From: Isoptericola halotolerans
GTDB lineage: Bacteria > Actinomycetota > Actinomycetes > Actinomycetales > Cellulomonadaceae
Reading direction: 5' to 3'
Length of the DNA stretch: 64,000 nt
Assembly: GCF_003003075.1 (NCBI RefSeq)
Contig: NZ_PVTX01000006.1
Span: 186,001-250,000, forward strand
Under the pieces are notes generated by a model. That model ran no database searches, was not told the DNA's origin, and saw only the letters and a program-made list of their open reading frames with translations. The position numbers and the translations under genes are program-made. Of the stretch, positions 9,207 through 38,772 are shown one piece after another. Positions within the stretch are counted from its first letter, which is position 1. Each line of letters starts with the position of its first letter.

Positions 9207-9220
9207 CCCCCACCCCCCCA

Positions 9221-9284
9221 CGCTGTGGGTGCACGACACGCCGTCTGGCCCTGCGGGCCGACGGCGTGTCGTGCACCCACAGCG
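9221..9284. terminator. Long perfect inverted repeat after putA
   Basis: Arms 9221-9245 and 9260-9284 are perfect 25-base reverse complements. Inside them 9247-9251 and 9255-9259 (GGCCC/GGGCC) pair again, leaving a three-base loop and one bulge. It begins 14 bp after the putA stop, so it is a plausible factor-independent terminator, although no U-tract follows. It is longer than most terminators and could be a member of a dispersed palindromic repeat family. Confidence 0.7.
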
Positions 9285-9314
9285 GTGGAGGGGGTTGCGT
9301 GCGACGATGTCGGC

Positions 9315-11157: not shown

Positions 11158-11177
11158 CGTCCGTCCACCTCCGCAGC

Positions 11178-11319
11178 GGGCGGGTGCCTCGTTCCTCGGC
11201 CCACCCGCTGCTTCACCTCCGCCTCAGGCGGTGCTGTTGCCGCCTGAGGCTGCGGCTCCGCATCGGGCGGGTGCCTCGTTCCTCGGCCCCACCCGCTGCT
11301 TCACCTCCGCCTCAGGCGG
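11178..11319. repeat. Two near-identical ~55-bp direct repeats
   Basis: Copies at about 11178-11231 and 11265-11319 share the segments GGGCGGGTGCCTCGTTCCTC and CACCCGCTGCTTCACCTCC almost base for base; the second has one extra C. They sit between the convergent acyltransferase and cebR genes, the second copy running into the 3' end of cebR. Likely local duplication of an intergenic segment. Confidence 0.8.
11221..11250. terminator. Hairpin between convergent genes
   Basis: GCCTCAGGCGG (11221-11231) and CCGCCTGAGGC (11240-11250) form an 11-bp perfect stem with an 8-base loop. It is 63 bp past the acyltransferase stop and 62 bp past the cebR stop, so it could serve both strands. Confidence 0.6.
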
Positions 11320-33151: not shown

Positions 33152-34498
33152 GTGCGCCGTCGCGTCCTGCTGGCGACGATCTCCGCGGTCGCCGTCGCAG
33201 TGGTCCTGCTCGGCGTGCCGCTGGGCTTCTTCGGGGCACAGTACGTCGTCGCGAACGAGGAGCGCCGCGTCTCGGACCGGCTCGACGCGTTCGTCCGCAC
33301 CGTCGATCGGGTCCAGGCGCAGGGGGAGAGCCCCAGCGAGGAGCAGCTCCTGCGCGCGGCCGAGGGCCGCTCCGGCGACCTCCCGGCGCGTGTGACCGTC
33401 AGCCTGCCCGACGGCGAGCTGCTCGAGTATGGTGACGAGCTGCGCGAACCGACGATCTTCAAGGCGGCGCAGACCACCGACGAGCGTGCGTCGGTCTCGA
33501 TCGAGGTCTCCGCGTGGGGCGCCTACATCAAGGCCGCGCAGACCGTCGCGCTGGTGGTGGTCGCCGGCGTCGTGGCGATCGCGGCCGGCGTGGCCATGGC
33601 GGTGTGGCAGGCGAACCGTCTCTCCGCGCCGCTCGTGTACCTCGCGGCGTCCGCCGAGCAGCTGGGCTCCGGTCAGGTGCGTCCGAGCCTCGAGCCGTCC
33701 GGAGTCGAGGAGATCGACCTCGTGGCGGCCGAGCTCGCGCGCAGCGCCGACCGGCTGGCCGGCCGCCTGGCGTCGGAGCGGCAGTTCGCGCAGGACGCGT
33801 CCCACCAGCTGCGCACGCCGCTGACCGCCCTGACGATGCGGCTGGAGGAGATCATGCTGACCAGCGACGACGACGACGTCGTCGAGGAGGCCCGGGTCTC
33901 CCTCGAGCAGGTGGAGCGGCTGGTCACCGTGGTGGACGACCTGCTCTCCACGTCGCGGCGGTCGCAGGGCGGCACCACCGAGGCGGTGACGGTGATCGAC
34001 GTCGTCCGCCAGCAGGAGGAGGAGTGGGCCGAGACGTTCCGGACGGCCGGGCGCGTGCTGGTCGTCGACGTCCCGGGCGAGCACCGGGTCCTGGCGACCC
34101 CCGGGGCGCTCGCGCAGGTGATCGCCACGCTGCTGGAGAACTCGCTGAAGTACGGCGCCGGCACCACGACCGTGCGCTCCAAGCCGTCGGGCCCCAAGGG
34201 TGCCGTGGCGCTCGAGGTCTCCGACGAGGGCCCCGGCGTGCCGGACGACATCGCCCCGCGGATCTTCGAGCGCGGCACGACGACGGGCGGCAGCACGGGC
34301 CTCGGGCTCGCGCTGGCCCGCGACCTGGTCGCCGCCGACGGCGGTCGACTCGAGCTGGCGCAGCGCCGCCCGCCGGTGTTCCGCATCTTCCTCGCGGGCG
34401 TGCCGCGCACGCTCGACCCGAGCGTCGTGCTCCCGCCCGGGACGACGATCTCGTCGCGCGGACGCCGCCGCGGCTGGCTCCACCACCACGAAGGCTGA
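33152..34498 (+). CDS. HAMP-containing sensor histidine kinase
   Basis: 448 aa. TM1 at about residues 5-30, a short extracytoplasmic domain (about 30-125), TM2 AQTVALVVVAGVVAIAAGVAM (about 130-150), HAMP, then DHp motif ASHQLRTPLTAL with His218, and HATPase_c with LLENSLKYGAG, DEGPGVPDD and TGLGLALARDL. The small external loop probably detects an envelope or ionic cue. GTG start 33152. The stop lies at the edge of an 88-bp tandem repeat. Confidence 0.92.
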   Translation: MRRRVLLATISAVAVAVVLLGVPLGFFGAQYVVANEERRVSDRLDAFVRTVDRVQAQGESPSEEQLLRAAEGRSGDLPARVTVSLPDGELLEYGDELREPTIFKAAQTTDERASVSIEVSAWGAYIKAAQTVALVVVAGVVAIAAGVAMAVWQANRLSAPLVYLAASAEQLGSGQVRPSLEPSGVEEIDLVAAELARSADRLAGRLASERQFAQDASHQLRTPLTALTMRLEEIMLTSDDDDVVEEARVSLEQVERLVTVVDDLLSTSRRSQGGTTEAVTVIDVVRQQEEEWAETFRTAGRVLVVDVPGEHRVLATPGALAQVIATLLENSLKYGAGTTTVRSKPSGPKGAVALEVSDEGPGVPDDIAPRIFERGTTTGGSTGLGLALARDLVAADGGRLELAQRRPPVFRIFLAGVPRTLDPSVVLPPGTTISSRGRRRGWLHHHEG

Positions 34499-34697
34499 CC
34501 CGGAGCGCAGCGGACGGTGGGGCCGAGGGACGAGGGCGCGCCGGGCGCGGAGTGCAGGGTCGGCCGAGCAACGACACGAGGGCTGACCCGGAGCGCAGCG
34601 GACGGTGGGGCCGAGGGACGAGGGCGCGCCGGGCGCGGAGTGCAGGGTCGGCCGAGCAACGACACGAGGGCTGACCCGGAGCGCAGCGGACGGTGGG
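34495..34697. repeat. 88-bp tandem direct repeat, about 2.3 units
   Basis: Unit starts CTGACCCGGAGCGCAGCGGA at 34495, repeats identically at 34583 and partially at 34671 (period exactly 88). The first unit begins within the kinase stop codon and the third is cut off just before the GtrA stop, so the repeat fills the convergent intergenic gap. Perfect identity between units points to a recent duplication. Confidence 0.9.
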
Positions 34698-35222: not shown

Positions 35223-36446
35223 GTGACATCCCCCGCCAGTGCTCCCGTCCCGCCCGTGGTCGCCGTCGTCGGTGGCGGCCAGCTCGCTCGCATGATGGCC
35301 CCGCCCGCCGCGGAGCTCGGCGTGCACCTGCGGGTGCTCGTCGAGGACCCCGCGACGGCCGCGGCACAGGTGGTCGTCGACGCCCCGGTGGGTGCCGCGT
35401 CCGACGAGGCAGCGATCCGTGAACTCGTGGCTCCCGCGGACGGGCGGCCGCCGGCGGACGTGCTGACCTTCGAGCACGAGCACGTCCCGAACGCGCTGCT
35501 CGCCGACCTGGTCGACGGCGGCACGCCGGTGCGTCCGGGGCCTGGTGCCCTGGTGCAGGCGCAGGACAAGATCGTGATGCGACGTCGGCTCACCGACCTG
35601 GGAGTGCCGTGCCCGCGCTGGGCGGCGCTGCCCACCGAACCGCCGGCGGCGCGTTCCGCGCTGGAGGCCTTCCTCGGGGAGGCCCCGGGCGGCGAGGCCG
35701 TGGTCAAGACCGCCCGCGGTGGCTACGACGGCAAGGGTGTGCGCGTGGTGACCGCAGCCGCCGAGGTCGACGACTGGGTCGCCGCCCACGTCGCGGGCGG
35801 CCCCGAGCTCCTCGTCGAGGAGAAGGTGCCCTTCACCCGCGAGCTGGCGGTGCTCGTCGCGCGGCGGCCGTCCGGCGAGGTGCGGACGTGGCCCGTCGTG
35901 GAGTCGATCCAGCGCGACGGCGTCTGCGCCGAGGTGGTCGCCCCCGCCCCCGGGCTCGACCCGGAGCTCGCCGAGCGTGCTCGCCAGGTGGCGGTCCAGG
36001 TGGCCGAAGGGCTCGACGTCACCGGTGTGCTCGCCGTGGAGATGTTCGAGGTCCCCGGAGAGGGCGGCCGCAGCGAGGTGCTCGTCAACGAGCTCGCCAT
36101 GCGTCCGCACAACTCGGGGCACTGGACCATCGACGGCGCCACGACCAGCCAGTTCGAGCAGCATCTGCGAGCGGTGCTCGACCTGCCGCTCGGCGCCACC
36201 ACCCCGACCGCCCGGTGGACCGTCATGGCGAACGTGCTCGGATCCGCCCTCGACAACCTCACGGACGCGCTGCCGCAGGTCGGCGCGCGGTTCCCGGAGG
36301 CACGGGTCAACCTGTACGGCAAGGGCATCCGCCCGGGCCGCAAGCTGGGCCACGTCAACGTGAGCGGTGACGACCTGGACGAGGTCCGCCGTCGGGCGCG
36401 TGGCGCCGCCGCCCTGCTGCGCGGCGAGGAGATCGAGGAGAGCTGA
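35223..36446 (+). CDS. purK: N5-carboxyaminoimidazole ribonucleotide synthase
   Basis: 407 aa ATP-grasp enzyme converting AIR, bicarbonate and ATP to N5-CAIR in de novo purine synthesis. N-terminal [12 protein letters not shown]-grasp elements [12 protein letters not shown] and [16 protein letters not shown]; metal site [17 protein letters not shown] and the C-terminal [20 protein letters not shown] 35223 is set by the leaderless -10 upstream and the [10 protein letters not shown] alignment. Shares one base with purE (TGATG). Confidence 0.95.
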
Positions 36447-36973
36447 TGAGCGAGAACAAGCCCGTCGTCGGGATCGTCATGGGGTCGGACTCCGACTGGC
36501 CCGTCATGCAGGCCGCGGCCGAGGCGCTGGACGAGCTCGGTGTGCCGTGCGAGGTGGACGTCGTCTCCGCGCACCGGATGCCGACCGAGATGATCGACTA
36601 CGGCCGGGCGGCCGCCGACCGCGGGCTGCGCGTGATCGTCGCCGGTGCCGGGGGAGCGGCGCACCTGCCGGGGATGCTGGCTGCCGTCACGCCCCTGCCG
36701 GTGATCGGGGTCCCCGTGCCGCTCAAGCACCTGGACGGGATGGACTCCCTGCTGTCGATCGTGCAGATGCCGGCGGGCGTGCCGGTCGCCACGGTGTCGA
36801 TCGGCGGCGCCCGCAACGCGGGTCTGCTCGCGGCGCAGATCCTCGGGGCGGGCACCGACCCGGAGTCGCTGGCGCTGCGGGAGCGGATGGTCGCGTTCCA
36901 GGCCGAGCTCCGCGACGTCGCGCACGCCAAGGGCGAGCGCCTGCGCGAGACCCGCCGCACCACCGCGAGGTAG
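36446..36973 (+). CDS. purE: N5-CAIR mutase
   Basis: 175 aa. Catalyses N5-CAIR to CAIR, the step after Pur[14 protein letters not shown] and SAHRMP hold the substrate-binding Ser/Asp and catalytic His; [15 protein letters not shown] and [19 protein letters not shown] complete the signature. ATG preceded by GAGGAGAGC inside purK. Its last two codons and TAG stop lie inside the first unit of a 9-bp repeat array. Confidence 0.96.
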
Positions 36974-37074
36974 TAACGCTCGTGCCGAGGTAGTGCGGGG
37001 TTGCGCGAGGTAGCGCTGCGTTGCGCGAGGTAGTACCGGGTTGCGCGAGGTAGTACCTCGCGGGTCGAGGTAGT
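36966..37074 (+). repeat. Array of six CGAGGTAGT repeats at an exact 20-bp period
   Basis: CGAGGTAGT (third copy CGAGGTAGC) starts at 36966, 36986, 37006, 37026, 37046 and 37066, every 20 bp without deviation. The 11-bp spacers differ, though three end in GTTGCG. The first copy contains the purE stop codon. Together with the right-hand array and the central palindrome it fills the 380-bp gene-free gap between purE and the LCP gene. Confidence 0.95.
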
Positions 37075-37092
37075 GGCGCGGTGGGGGTTCCG

Positions 37093-37184
37093 CCGGGTGT
37101 CGGGCCCCGTACACGGTCGCGTTCACGGGCGCAGGGCGCCCTCCACTTCGGGACTGACGACCGTGCACGGGACCCGACACCCGG
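37093..37184. other. Central inverted repeat inside the repeat array
   Basis: 27-base arms 37093-37119 and 37158-37184 are reverse complements at 25 of 27 positions. Both mismatches become G-U pairs in a minus-strand RNA but A-C in a plus-strand RNA, so the stem is perfect only in the transcript coming from the LCP gene. It may terminate that transcript or act as a structured RNA. Confidence 0.75.
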
Positions 37185-37224
37185 CTTGAGCGTTCCCGCC
37201 CGGCGCTACTCCACGCCGTCGGGC

Positions 37225-37333
37225 ACTACCTCGCGCCGCGCGCTACTACCTCGGGGCGAGCGGCACTACCTCGGCGGCCGGCGCACTACCTCGAGCAGAG
37301 TGCTACTACCTCGGCGAGGGTCGCACTACCTCG
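37225..37333 (-). repeat. Mirror array of six ACTACCTCG repeats at an exact 20-bp period
   Basis: ACTACCTCG, the reverse complement of the left unit, starts at 37225, 37245, 37265, 37285, 37305 and 37325. A degenerate seventh copy (GCTACTCCA) sits in phase at 37205. The array stops 20 bp before the LCP stop codon at 37354. Confidence 0.95.
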
Positions 37334-37353: not shown

Positions 37354-38772
37354 TCAGAGGCCGCCGACCGTCGAGCCGGGCTCCAGGTTGCCGTCCCGGA
37401 GGTCGGCCCAGAAGGTGTCGACGTCGTCGGCGAGGAGGACCGTCGAGCCGACGCCGTTGCCCGGGTTGTAGCCGGGGTCGGCGATGGGCGGCGTGCCCGT
37501 GACGCCCTGCGGCCCGGTCGCGCCCTTGAAGGCGAGTGCCAGCCGGCCGAGGTCGATCAGGCCGGTCTTCTGGTCCACGAGCAGAGCGTCCGTCCCGGCG
37601 CCGACGAGCTGCACCTGGTCGATCGGGTTGAGCAGCACGCTCGGCTGGACGGCGGTGTCGGCGATGCCGGCGATCACCTGCTGCTGGCGCTCGGCCCGCC
37701 CGATGTCGCCCTGGGGGTCCGAGTAGCGCATGCGGGAGAACGCGAGCGCGGTCGCGCCGTCGGCCTGGTGGCACCCCGCCTCCCAGACGAGCTCCGACTT
37801 CGGGTCGTCGACGTCGTAGTCGAGGCACAGCTCGACGCCACCCACGGCGTCCACGATCTCCTCGAGGCTGCCGAAACCCACCTCGGCGTAGTGGTCCATC
37901 GTGAGCCCGGTGAGACCCTCGACGGTCTGGACCAGCAGGGGCGCGCCGCCCCACGCGTAGGCGGCGTTCACCTTGCTCATGCCCTCGCCGGGGATCTCGA
38001 CGTAGGTGTCGCGCGGGATGGAGATGAGCGCGGTCGGGCCGCTCCGGGGCTTGTGTAGCACCATGATCGTGTCGGTGCGCGCCCCGGACGTGTCGTCGTT
38101 CACCCCGCCGGACCCGCGGGCGTCGGACCCGGCGAGCAGGTACGTCGTACCCGGCGTCCCCTCGGCGTCCGACAGGGCGTCGGTGTGCTGGATCTGCCCG
38201 TCGGCCCAGACGATCAGCCCGATCGGCCAGGCCAGGAGCAGCACCAGGACGAGCAGGAACGCGAGCCCGGCGACCCGTCCCTTGCGCACGCGGAACCCGC
38301 CCGGGCCCTTCTGGTCCGGGCGTGCCGGCCCGCGGCCGGTGGGTCCACCGCCGTCGCCCCGTGCCGGGGCGGGCCGTGCGGCGGGTGAGGCCTGGCGCGT
38401 CCCGGCCGGCATGACGCGGGTCCCCGACGCTCCGGCGGGCGGCTGGGCAGCGGGCGGCTGTGCCGCCCGCGAGACCCTCGGCCGTGAGCTGCCGACGGCG
38501 GGGGCGTACGACTGCGGCTGCCGGGCCGGTGCCGCGGACCGCCGCTGCGGTGCCTTCGGCGTCACCGGGATCTCGCGGGACGACTGCCGCCGGACGCGGG
38601 GCTCGCGTGACTCCAGGGGCACGGCGTCGTCCCGGCGCCCGACACGACCGCCGGCGCGCGGCCCGCCGGACGCCGAGCCGCCGACGGAGATGGCGTCACC
38701 GGTCTGCTGGGGACGGGAGCTGTGGCCGCCGGTGGGCGTGAAGCTCGGGGGGATGCGTCGCTCGTCCGTCAT
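37354..38772 (-). CDS. LytR-CpsA-Psr (LCP) family glycopolymer ligase
   Basis: 472 aa. A long disordered cytoplasmic N-terminus (about 1-165, Pro/Arg/Ala-rich), one membrane helix GLAFLLVLVLLLAWPIGLIVW (about 168-190), and an extracellular LCP domain with YLLAGSDARG, SGARTDTIMVLH, ISIPRDTYVEIPG and RMRYSDPQGDIGRAERQQQ, the conserved Asp/Arg residues of pyrophosphate-lipid binding. LCP enzymes transfer polyprenyl-linked glycopolymers to peptidoglycan. It lies 4 bp after a second LCP gene; the pair sits near mannose and galactan genes, but the polymer attached is unknown. Confidence 0.93.
   Translation of the reverse strand: MTDERRIPPSFTPTGGHSSRPQQTGDAISVGGSASGGPRAGGRVGRRDDAVPLESREPRVRRQSSREIPVTPKAPQRRSAAPARQPQSYAPAVGSSRPRVSRAAQPPAAQPPAGASGTRVMPAGTRQASPAARPAPARGDGGGPTGRGPARPDQKGPGGFRVRKGRVAGLAFLLVLVLLLAWPIGLIVWADGQIQHTDALSDAEGTPGTTYLLAGSDARGSGGVNDDTSGARTDTIMVLHKPRSGPTALISIPRDTYVEIPGEGMSKVNAAYAWGGAPLLVQTVEGLTGLTMDHYAEVGFGSLEEIVDAVGGVELCLDYDVDDPKSELVWEAGCHQADGATALAFSRMRYSDPQGDIGRAERQQQVIAGIADTAVQPSVLLNPIDQVQLVGAGTDALLVDQKTGLIDLGRLALAFKGATGPQGVTGTPPIADPGYNPGNGVGSTVLLADDVDTFWADLRDGNLEPGSTVGGL

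Follow-up and report, generated by a model that had tools for sequence, protein, structure and literature searches.

Several described repeat systems resemble, in one respect or another, the locus analysed here. Plasmid iterons are direct repeats of about 20 bp that are bound head to tail, and protein-roadblock terminators with tandem sites are exemplified by the Sal-box/TTF-I array of mouse rDNA. To our knowledge, the way in which transcripts end in high-G+C actinobacteria is poorly settled. The nearest elements found are the GTAG-tagged REPs, dispersed intergenic repeats that lie near gene 3' ends and whose GTAG end often supplies the TAG stop codon of the flanking ORF (PMC3733652). Together with the BIMEs and SMAGs, which are associated with RAYT transposases, they are placed in convergent and co-directional gaps and form clusters and tail-to-tail pairs, as do the arrays described below (PMC3733652). 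The DUS of the Neisseriaceae combine a short word of fixed core with species dialects and have dialects congruent with phylogeny and inverted pairs at terminators (PMC3630211). The original prediction for the present locus held that no element of this form is described, which is nearly right: REPs share with it the placement at gene ends and the supply of TAG stop codons, but not the structure. The REP unit is a palindromic stem-loop, whereas the array unit is not palindromic, and head-to-tail pairs, rare among REPs in most genomes, are here the basic form, in arrays of up to 12 units. A search of the open-access literature, outside of which most subscription papers lie, returned no description of such arrays or for these genera.

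The window, that is, the whole stretch of 64,000 nucleotides that was analysed, contains two mirror arrays of a short word with an exact 20-bp period around a palindrome, located between the convergent genes purE and LCP (Table 1). This arrangement was confirmed: pairs of CGAGGTAG at 20 bp number 10 in the window, whereas none appeared in any of 100 dinucleotide shuffles. The coincidence of the first unit with the purE stop codon was likewise confirmed. The word had been described as twelve identical 9-mers; the 9-mer is exact five times on the plus strand and six times on the minus strand, and the copy at 37006, CGAGGTAGC, deviates at base nine, so that the invariant part is an 8-mer. The proposed seventh copy at 37205 matches at only 5 of 9 bases but, given the sequence of its homologue (Table 1), looks like a decayed unit. 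An assembly artefact, which the prediction had named as a possible refutation, is very unlikely, since similar arrays sit in many other genomes. When the purE gap was compared by eye in 18 genomes, arrays were found at purE in four: the genome of origin (G000), the sister genome G011 (2 units), G004 (3+3 units, of which one is decayed, following a TGA of its own) and G003 (3 units, most of them with the variant word CGAGGTGG). Compared with most congeners, PurE of G000 apparently has, again by eye, a shortened C-terminus, as though the last codons had given way to the array. Elsewhere in the window, positions 34487-34697 hold a direct repeat (shift 88 bp, 99% identity over 123 bp), and positions 11169-11319 and 9213-9293 hold two further repeats, one direct and close to perfect (64 bp, 97%), the other inverted (83 columns, 89%).

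Table 1. Features of the purE/LCP gap and the flanking genes, in window coordinates
Feature	Coordinates	Strand	Basis
purE (AIR carboxylase), ends in array 1	36446..36973	+	
Array 1, six head-to-tail 20-bp units, sense to purE; CGAGGTAG starts at 36966, 36986, 37006, 37026, 37046 and 37066	36966..37085	+	word positions, shuffles
First word CGAGGTAG; its TAG (36971-36973) is the purE stop codon	36966..36973	+	sequence; unit likewise placed in sister genome G011
Central palindrome, arms 37092-37119 and 37158-37185, 28 nt, 93%	37092..37185	.	also a dispersed repeat by itself
Decayed in-phase seventh unit	37206..37213	-	TGAGGTAG in the homologous C5 copy, same genome
Array 2, six CGAGGTAG words (37226, 37246, 37266, 37286, 37306, 37326), from 37226-37233 through 37326-37333 in steps of exactly 20 bp, sense to the LCP gene	37226..37333	-	
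LytR-CpsA-Psr (LCP) gene, convergent; array 2 sits 20 nt 3' of its stop	37354..38772	-	

The locus is not isolated but belongs to a family that is dispersed through Isoptericola and related Cellulomonadaceae. The search for the word at 20-bp spacing, which the prediction had proposed as a check, recovered this family in G000 and in 10 of 17 congeners. In G000 (3.85 Mb), 162 forward and 112 reverse word pairs were found with up to two mismatches, and the reversed-pattern control gave 0; with up to one mismatch, 10 of the 17 congeners have 22-286 pairs and the other 7 have 0-10, and 20 genomes of other genera have 0 or 1 pair each (reversed control, 1 match in each of two). Thirty-eight arrays at exact-match sites covering about 1.5 of the 3.85 Mb extrapolate to roughly 100 arrays per genome. 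An iteron-like locus, one of the readings offered, does not agree with arrays that are numerous and dispersed over the chromosome at gene ends, whereas iterons sit at one origin. Among the matches listed in the genome scan are records of Isoptericola, Krasilnikoviella, Oerskovia and Cellulosimicrobium and one labelled Sphaerisporangium. An Anaerolineales match proved unrelated, being a single near-perfect tandem repeat in a stretch of 58% G+C, and a viral origin was rejected, as the two viral-contig matches are 10-bp tandem repeats and none looks related. In other Cellulomonadaceae genera, the 20-bp architecture occurs with changed words, CGAGGTCGGCA in G099 (genus g35, locus L240) and mostly CGAGGTCGYAC in G050 (genus g34, locus L397). 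Of 396 genomes of the order, 361 lie outside the family (f1); in 16 of these, a pattern of three GAGGT at 20-bp spacing was matched 1-7 times, and many of the matches are, by eye, plain tandem duplications. Genus g23 (G063 and G124; loci L364-L383) has 20-bp arrays of an unrelated word, GTGGAGCGTTC, which close in a conserved-looking centre and one inverted unit; this separate array family accounts for the 18 and 26 matches of the reversed-pattern control in G063 and G124, where the control is accordingly not clean. A motif-free search at a lag of 20 nt in small samples of array-poor genomes produced no peak, and G000 itself gave none either.

An array consists of 2-12 head-to-tail 20-bp units, each with the fixed CGAGGTAG, a species-specific extension of 3-5 bases and a free remainder. 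In the G000 unit, CGAGGTAG precedes T[GA][CG]C and then loose, C/G-rich sequence, and the extension after the same 8-mer is TTCG in Krasilnikoviella flava, GCAAC in AK164, GCAA in chiayiensis, A[AG]CG in halalbus, TACG in QY916, CGCG in two metagenome bins and AACCC in Oerskovia flava (8 units only). The extension is common to the arrays of one genome and differs across species, while the 8-mer is common across the genus; on the purK-purE tree, close relatives tend to have one extension in common, as judged by eye from small samples. The suggestion that selection or a copying mechanism acts on the word and its spacing was well founded. Among the 107 spacings of up to 70 nt in contiguous stretches, 98 are of 20 nt, 8 of 40 nt and 1 of 21 nt, such statistics, like those on gaps below, having been taken from contiguous stretches where selection bias matters. 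In orthologous arrays of the sister species, word and phase are kept and spacers are unrelated: over 23 unit pairs of G000 and G011, matched by order from the gene side and not by alignment, word identity is 94.6%, an upper estimate as the array caller permits up to two word mismatches, and spacer identity 42.4%. Eight orthologous loci were offered for this comparison, and one of them, at gene 129, gave no G011 unit, its words there having decayed. Across 507 internal units, mismatches affect 43 of the 4056 word positions, and adjacent spacers are 65.3% alike, against 51.6% for spacers of unrelated loci in one genome. Every one of the 68 intergenic words of G000 and of the 39 of G017 falls in an array, with one lone word at a G000 stop codon, which hints at cooperativity. 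The idea that proteins bound to all copies would sit on one face of the DNA was not upheld: at 10.5 bp per turn, a step of 20 bp makes 1.9 turns, with a rotation of about 34 degrees per copy, and the spacing of 21 bp that would keep to one face is the single exception noted above. As 20 bp is not exactly two turns, bound copies would wind round the helix, and contact between neighbours would fit better than display on one face.

The arrays are located predominantly behind genes and in the sense direction. Among 197 arrays from 14 locus groups, which were chosen for three words at 20 bp and one of which is the unrelated Anaerolineales locus, 153 follow a sense gene, 34 an antisense gene, 9 have no upstream gene in the stretch and 1 is intragenic; genes were called by a simple codon-usage script and not by a standard gene finder, and its errors enter the 34 antisense cases as well as the gap classes given below. 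The TAG of the word is the stop codon of 67 of the 153 sense genes (unit 1 in 50, unit 2 in 17), and in a further 27 a stop codon, mostly TGA, ends 3-4 nt ahead of unit 1. A second tally of 35 antisense arrays found 23 tail to tail with another array, 1 back to back and 11 unpaired; 76 sense arrays have no partner, and two arrays often face each other between convergent genes. In contiguous stretches of 380-400 kb of G000, G011 and G017, arrays occupy 11 of the 161 gaps of at least 100 nt between co-directional genes, 6 of the 37 between convergent genes and 1 of the 141 between divergent genes (8 arrays lie in divergent gaps in the larger, array-selected set), and in the contiguous stretch of the genome G008 they occupy 0 of 103 such gaps. 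None of the 197 co-directional gene ends of G000 and G017 followed by less than 30 nt has an array. Expressed per gene end, arrays are present at 12 of 172 convergent or at least 100-nt co-directional ends in G000 and at 6 of 207 in G017. Unpaired arrays in co-directional gaps number 31 sense and 4 antisense, or 15 and 4 when only those wholly 3' of the stop codon are counted, so that polarity is most pronounced at arrays that themselves provide the stop codon. Of the 39 unpaired arrays situated between convergent genes, 32 are closer to their sense gene than to the opposing one. A cruder count, which takes in every unpaired array up to 25 nt downstream of a stop codon, gives no bias (17 sense, 24 antisense), because an array in a convergent gap that is sense to one gene ends beside the other gene. 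The upstream genes are functionally diverse and include those for MarR regulators, PAP2 phosphatase, mannitol dehydrogenase, PspA, rRNA methylase, a regulator type that we take from its domains to be Rex-like, and others.

Strong hairpins are present in 10 of 56 head-to-tail arrays, in comparison with 68 of 150 other gene ends, sampled from 171 (Fisher p = 3e-4). Behind 37 of the 56, less than 55 nt of usable intergenic DNA remains once the last 30 nt before a co-directional start are excluded, and the array is therefore the sole candidate 3'-end signal in the gap for many genes, though not for all. Where at least 55 nt are left, a hairpin is found in 7 of 19 cases, about the control rate, so that some genes may not need the array.

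We tentatively favour, at a little short of even probability, the reading in which a word-specific putative protein, arranged head to tail every 20 bp, turns the array into a polar signal for the 3' end or for termination. That some agent recognises the word is probable, since drift and plain duplication both fail to account for a preserved word, phase and polarity alongside randomised spacers. In the proposed mechanism, a sequence-specific putative protein would bind one unit per 20 bp and touch its neighbours head to tail; its binding, polar with respect to DNA or nascent RNA, would stop or release RNA polymerase, and the array would act as a factor-dependent terminator or insulator of the upstream transcription unit. 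A shift in the specificity of the protein would rewrite the extension across the arrays of a species, loss of the protein would let the arrays decay, and arrays might lengthen and spread through recombination or through template switching from one word to another, processes that would hold the 20-bp register. Placement at gene ends, polarity, phase, selection on word and phase, conserved position, dialects, the hint of cooperativity, the shortage of hairpins at head-to-tail arrays, suggestive of substitution, and the diversity of the genes served all argue for this reading; the ordinary hairpin rate where at least 55 nt remain, the small share of gene ends with arrays and the 15 to 4 polarity past the stop codon argue against it. 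The Sal-box/TTF-I roadblock array is similar in consisting of polar tandem binding sites 3' of a transcription unit, and placement and polarity of the present arrays fit such a roadblock-like terminator; here, hundreds of units lie at many unrelated bacterial genes and the factor is putative. The function would be dispensable, given the close relatives that are array-free or nearly so (the 7 congeners with 0-10 pairs). Among 21 genes of G000 and G011 for which no clear match was found in G008, in a comparison covering about 10% of the genome, no candidate for the trans factor stands out; they include, by eye, LacI-type and ArsR-like regulators, and a gene that appears missing may lie elsewhere in G008.

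The chief alternative, possible but less probable, is a REP-like dispersed repeat with no gene-regulatory role, in which units would be multiplied and moved by a copying activity that recognises the word, be it recombination or an unknown mobiliser, and would survive mainly at gene ends, and in sense, as the word brings a stop codon and harms little there. With a step of 20, which is not a multiple of 3, three units place TAG in all frames, and the concentration of the polarity bias at stop-overlapping arrays agrees with this explanation, as does the likeness to GTAG REPs in the GTAG-type end, the location at gene 3' ends and the supply of TAG stop codons (PMC3733652). The presence of arrays also changes fast: G017 has 171 pairs and its tree neighbour G002 none, and on the purK-purE tree the distribution of rich and poor states takes five changes, of which well-supported branches force four. 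Further evidence for copying comes from the palindrome, which is found in G000 at five other loci, 94-97% identical and always between mirror arrays, and twice in G011. Around its copies at the six G000 loci, units with the same spacers recur in register in differing combinations and numbers, the most-shared units being those that adjoin the palindrome and the gene-side units being more often locus-specific; at one locus that looks orthologous, there are ten left units in G000 and none in G011. Arrays therefore appear to exchange blocks at unit boundaries. Standing against the REP-like explanation are the non-palindromic units and the Y1/RAYT transposase (PF01797), absent from all 28 genomes searched, G000 included, in a search whose control was positive in 5 of 14 well-known genomes; a RAYT/REP origin as such was rejected on these two grounds. 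RAYT is not known to be universal in genomes with REPs, so its absence alone is not decisive. Words and phase persist past full divergence of the spacers, an outcome that plain copying would produce only if the copying process required the word, and the sense bias remains for arrays wholly 3' of the stop codon in co-directional gaps. Orthologous gene ends moreover share arrays: of the 9 array ends in G000 for which the analysed G011 stretch contains an ortholog, 5 have at least 2 units there, compared with 2 of 266 array-less ends. In G008, the strict rule finds no array, single words stand at two of those stop codons, and a looser rule finds two units at a third gene end, a pattern that fits array loss without proving it.

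Several observations were made at and around these loci. The palindrome belongs to a repeat that is dispersed throughout the genus, whose core is conserved and whose outer stem arms vary by locus (e.g. L183 3792-3849), and it looks like a hairpin element set in gene-end stems. Its core is also present in array-poor genomes, with 41 matches in G009, a count in which the palindrome can match both strands. As a long hairpin, it gave only sub-threshold microRNA-precursor matches in a search for known RNA families (best 32.5 bits, gathering score 90). Beside the array at about 471.3 kb of G000 C1, about 8 kb are missing relative to G011 C1:409337-417663 and G008 C1:533266-541807. The G008 orthologs of G000 genes 272/273 have a terminator-like hairpin with the tip GAGGTAG-TG-CTACCTC, possibly the origin of facing units or a remnant of them.

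That the arrays function as structured RNA, which had been raised at the outset, we consider improbable, although the mirror arrays are indeed structured. According to this explanation, facing arrays form rods or hairpins, which would terminate transcription or shield the 3' ends of mRNA, and the 20-nt period lets any register pair. The predicted transcript of the window locus indeed folds into one long rod (-263.5 kcal/mol), as the prediction had suggested, 19 of 29 mirror arrays are strongly structured (z below -2), and 23 of 35 antisense arrays are set tail to tail with a partner. The partnerless sense arrays and the head-to-tail arrays speak against it, the latter being less structured than ordinary gene ends (mean z -1.4, n=42, versus -2.7, n=48, for the controls) and poorer in strong hairpins. 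Of the G+C-rich transcript hairpin typical of intrinsic terminators, many mirror arrays (19 of 29) thus have an equivalent, and the head-to-tail arrays (10 of 56) have fewer than the controls. The unit itself is not palindromic: folds of 28-mers were no stronger than spacer-shuffled ones in 8 of 9 species, the exception being AK164, and folds of 20-mers were stronger than shuffled ones in 4 of 9 species, of which AK164 and chiayiensis alone showed a clear difference.

A translation-end device, in which TAG repeated in all frames or an SD-like GAGGU beside the stop codon acts on terminating or read-through ribosomes, is equally improbable. It is in keeping with the stop codons drawn from unit 1 or 2, with the 20-nt step that shifts the frame each time and with GAGGU, which matches five bases of the anti-SD complement. 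It leaves aside, however, the 80 of 153 upstream sense genes that end in TGA, outside the word, the arrays of up to 12 units where three suffice for all frames, and the extension dialect, for which it has no role. The 20-bp arrays of genus g23, too, have a word with no stop codon and do not abut stop codons, the first unit of those inspected beginning at least 32 nt from a called gene. Tandem phased arrays are not a known feature of DUS, whereas the present arrays are phased, anchored on stop codons and free of single-word enrichment. A self-recognition tag for biased transformation, with species dialects and with inverted pairs doubling as terminators, is very improbable despite the similar dialect pattern, given that uptake tags are also common inside genes (PMC3630211), whereas no excess of single words was detected in the stretches of G000, G017 and G008 (43 words in 400 kb of array-less G008 and 43 genic singles in 380 kb of G000, with no intergenic singles in G000 or G017).

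The arrays are a novel form of dispersed gene-end repeat, and the chance that they constitute a new class of factor-dependent gene-end signal is fair. In its fullest form, which we hold less firmly than termination as such, the favoured reading would describe a new bacterial gene-end signal: a protein would polymerise on the 20-bp word array, read the end of the coding sequence through the stop-containing word and terminate or insulate transcription, and its specificity for the DNA or RNA word would drift, so that, within a single genus, the approximately 100 arrays of a genome would change dialect in concert and would be lost with the protein. If the arrays are neutral instead, they would represent a REP-like class that copies in the register of the word in the absence of palindromes or RAYT, which would also be new. 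Both the terminator model and the copying explanation predict a factor that is absent from array-poor genomes. Species that are rich in arrays next to relatives from which arrays are absent constitute a natural experiment, and the predicted word-specific trans factor may be found by means of the sister genomes.
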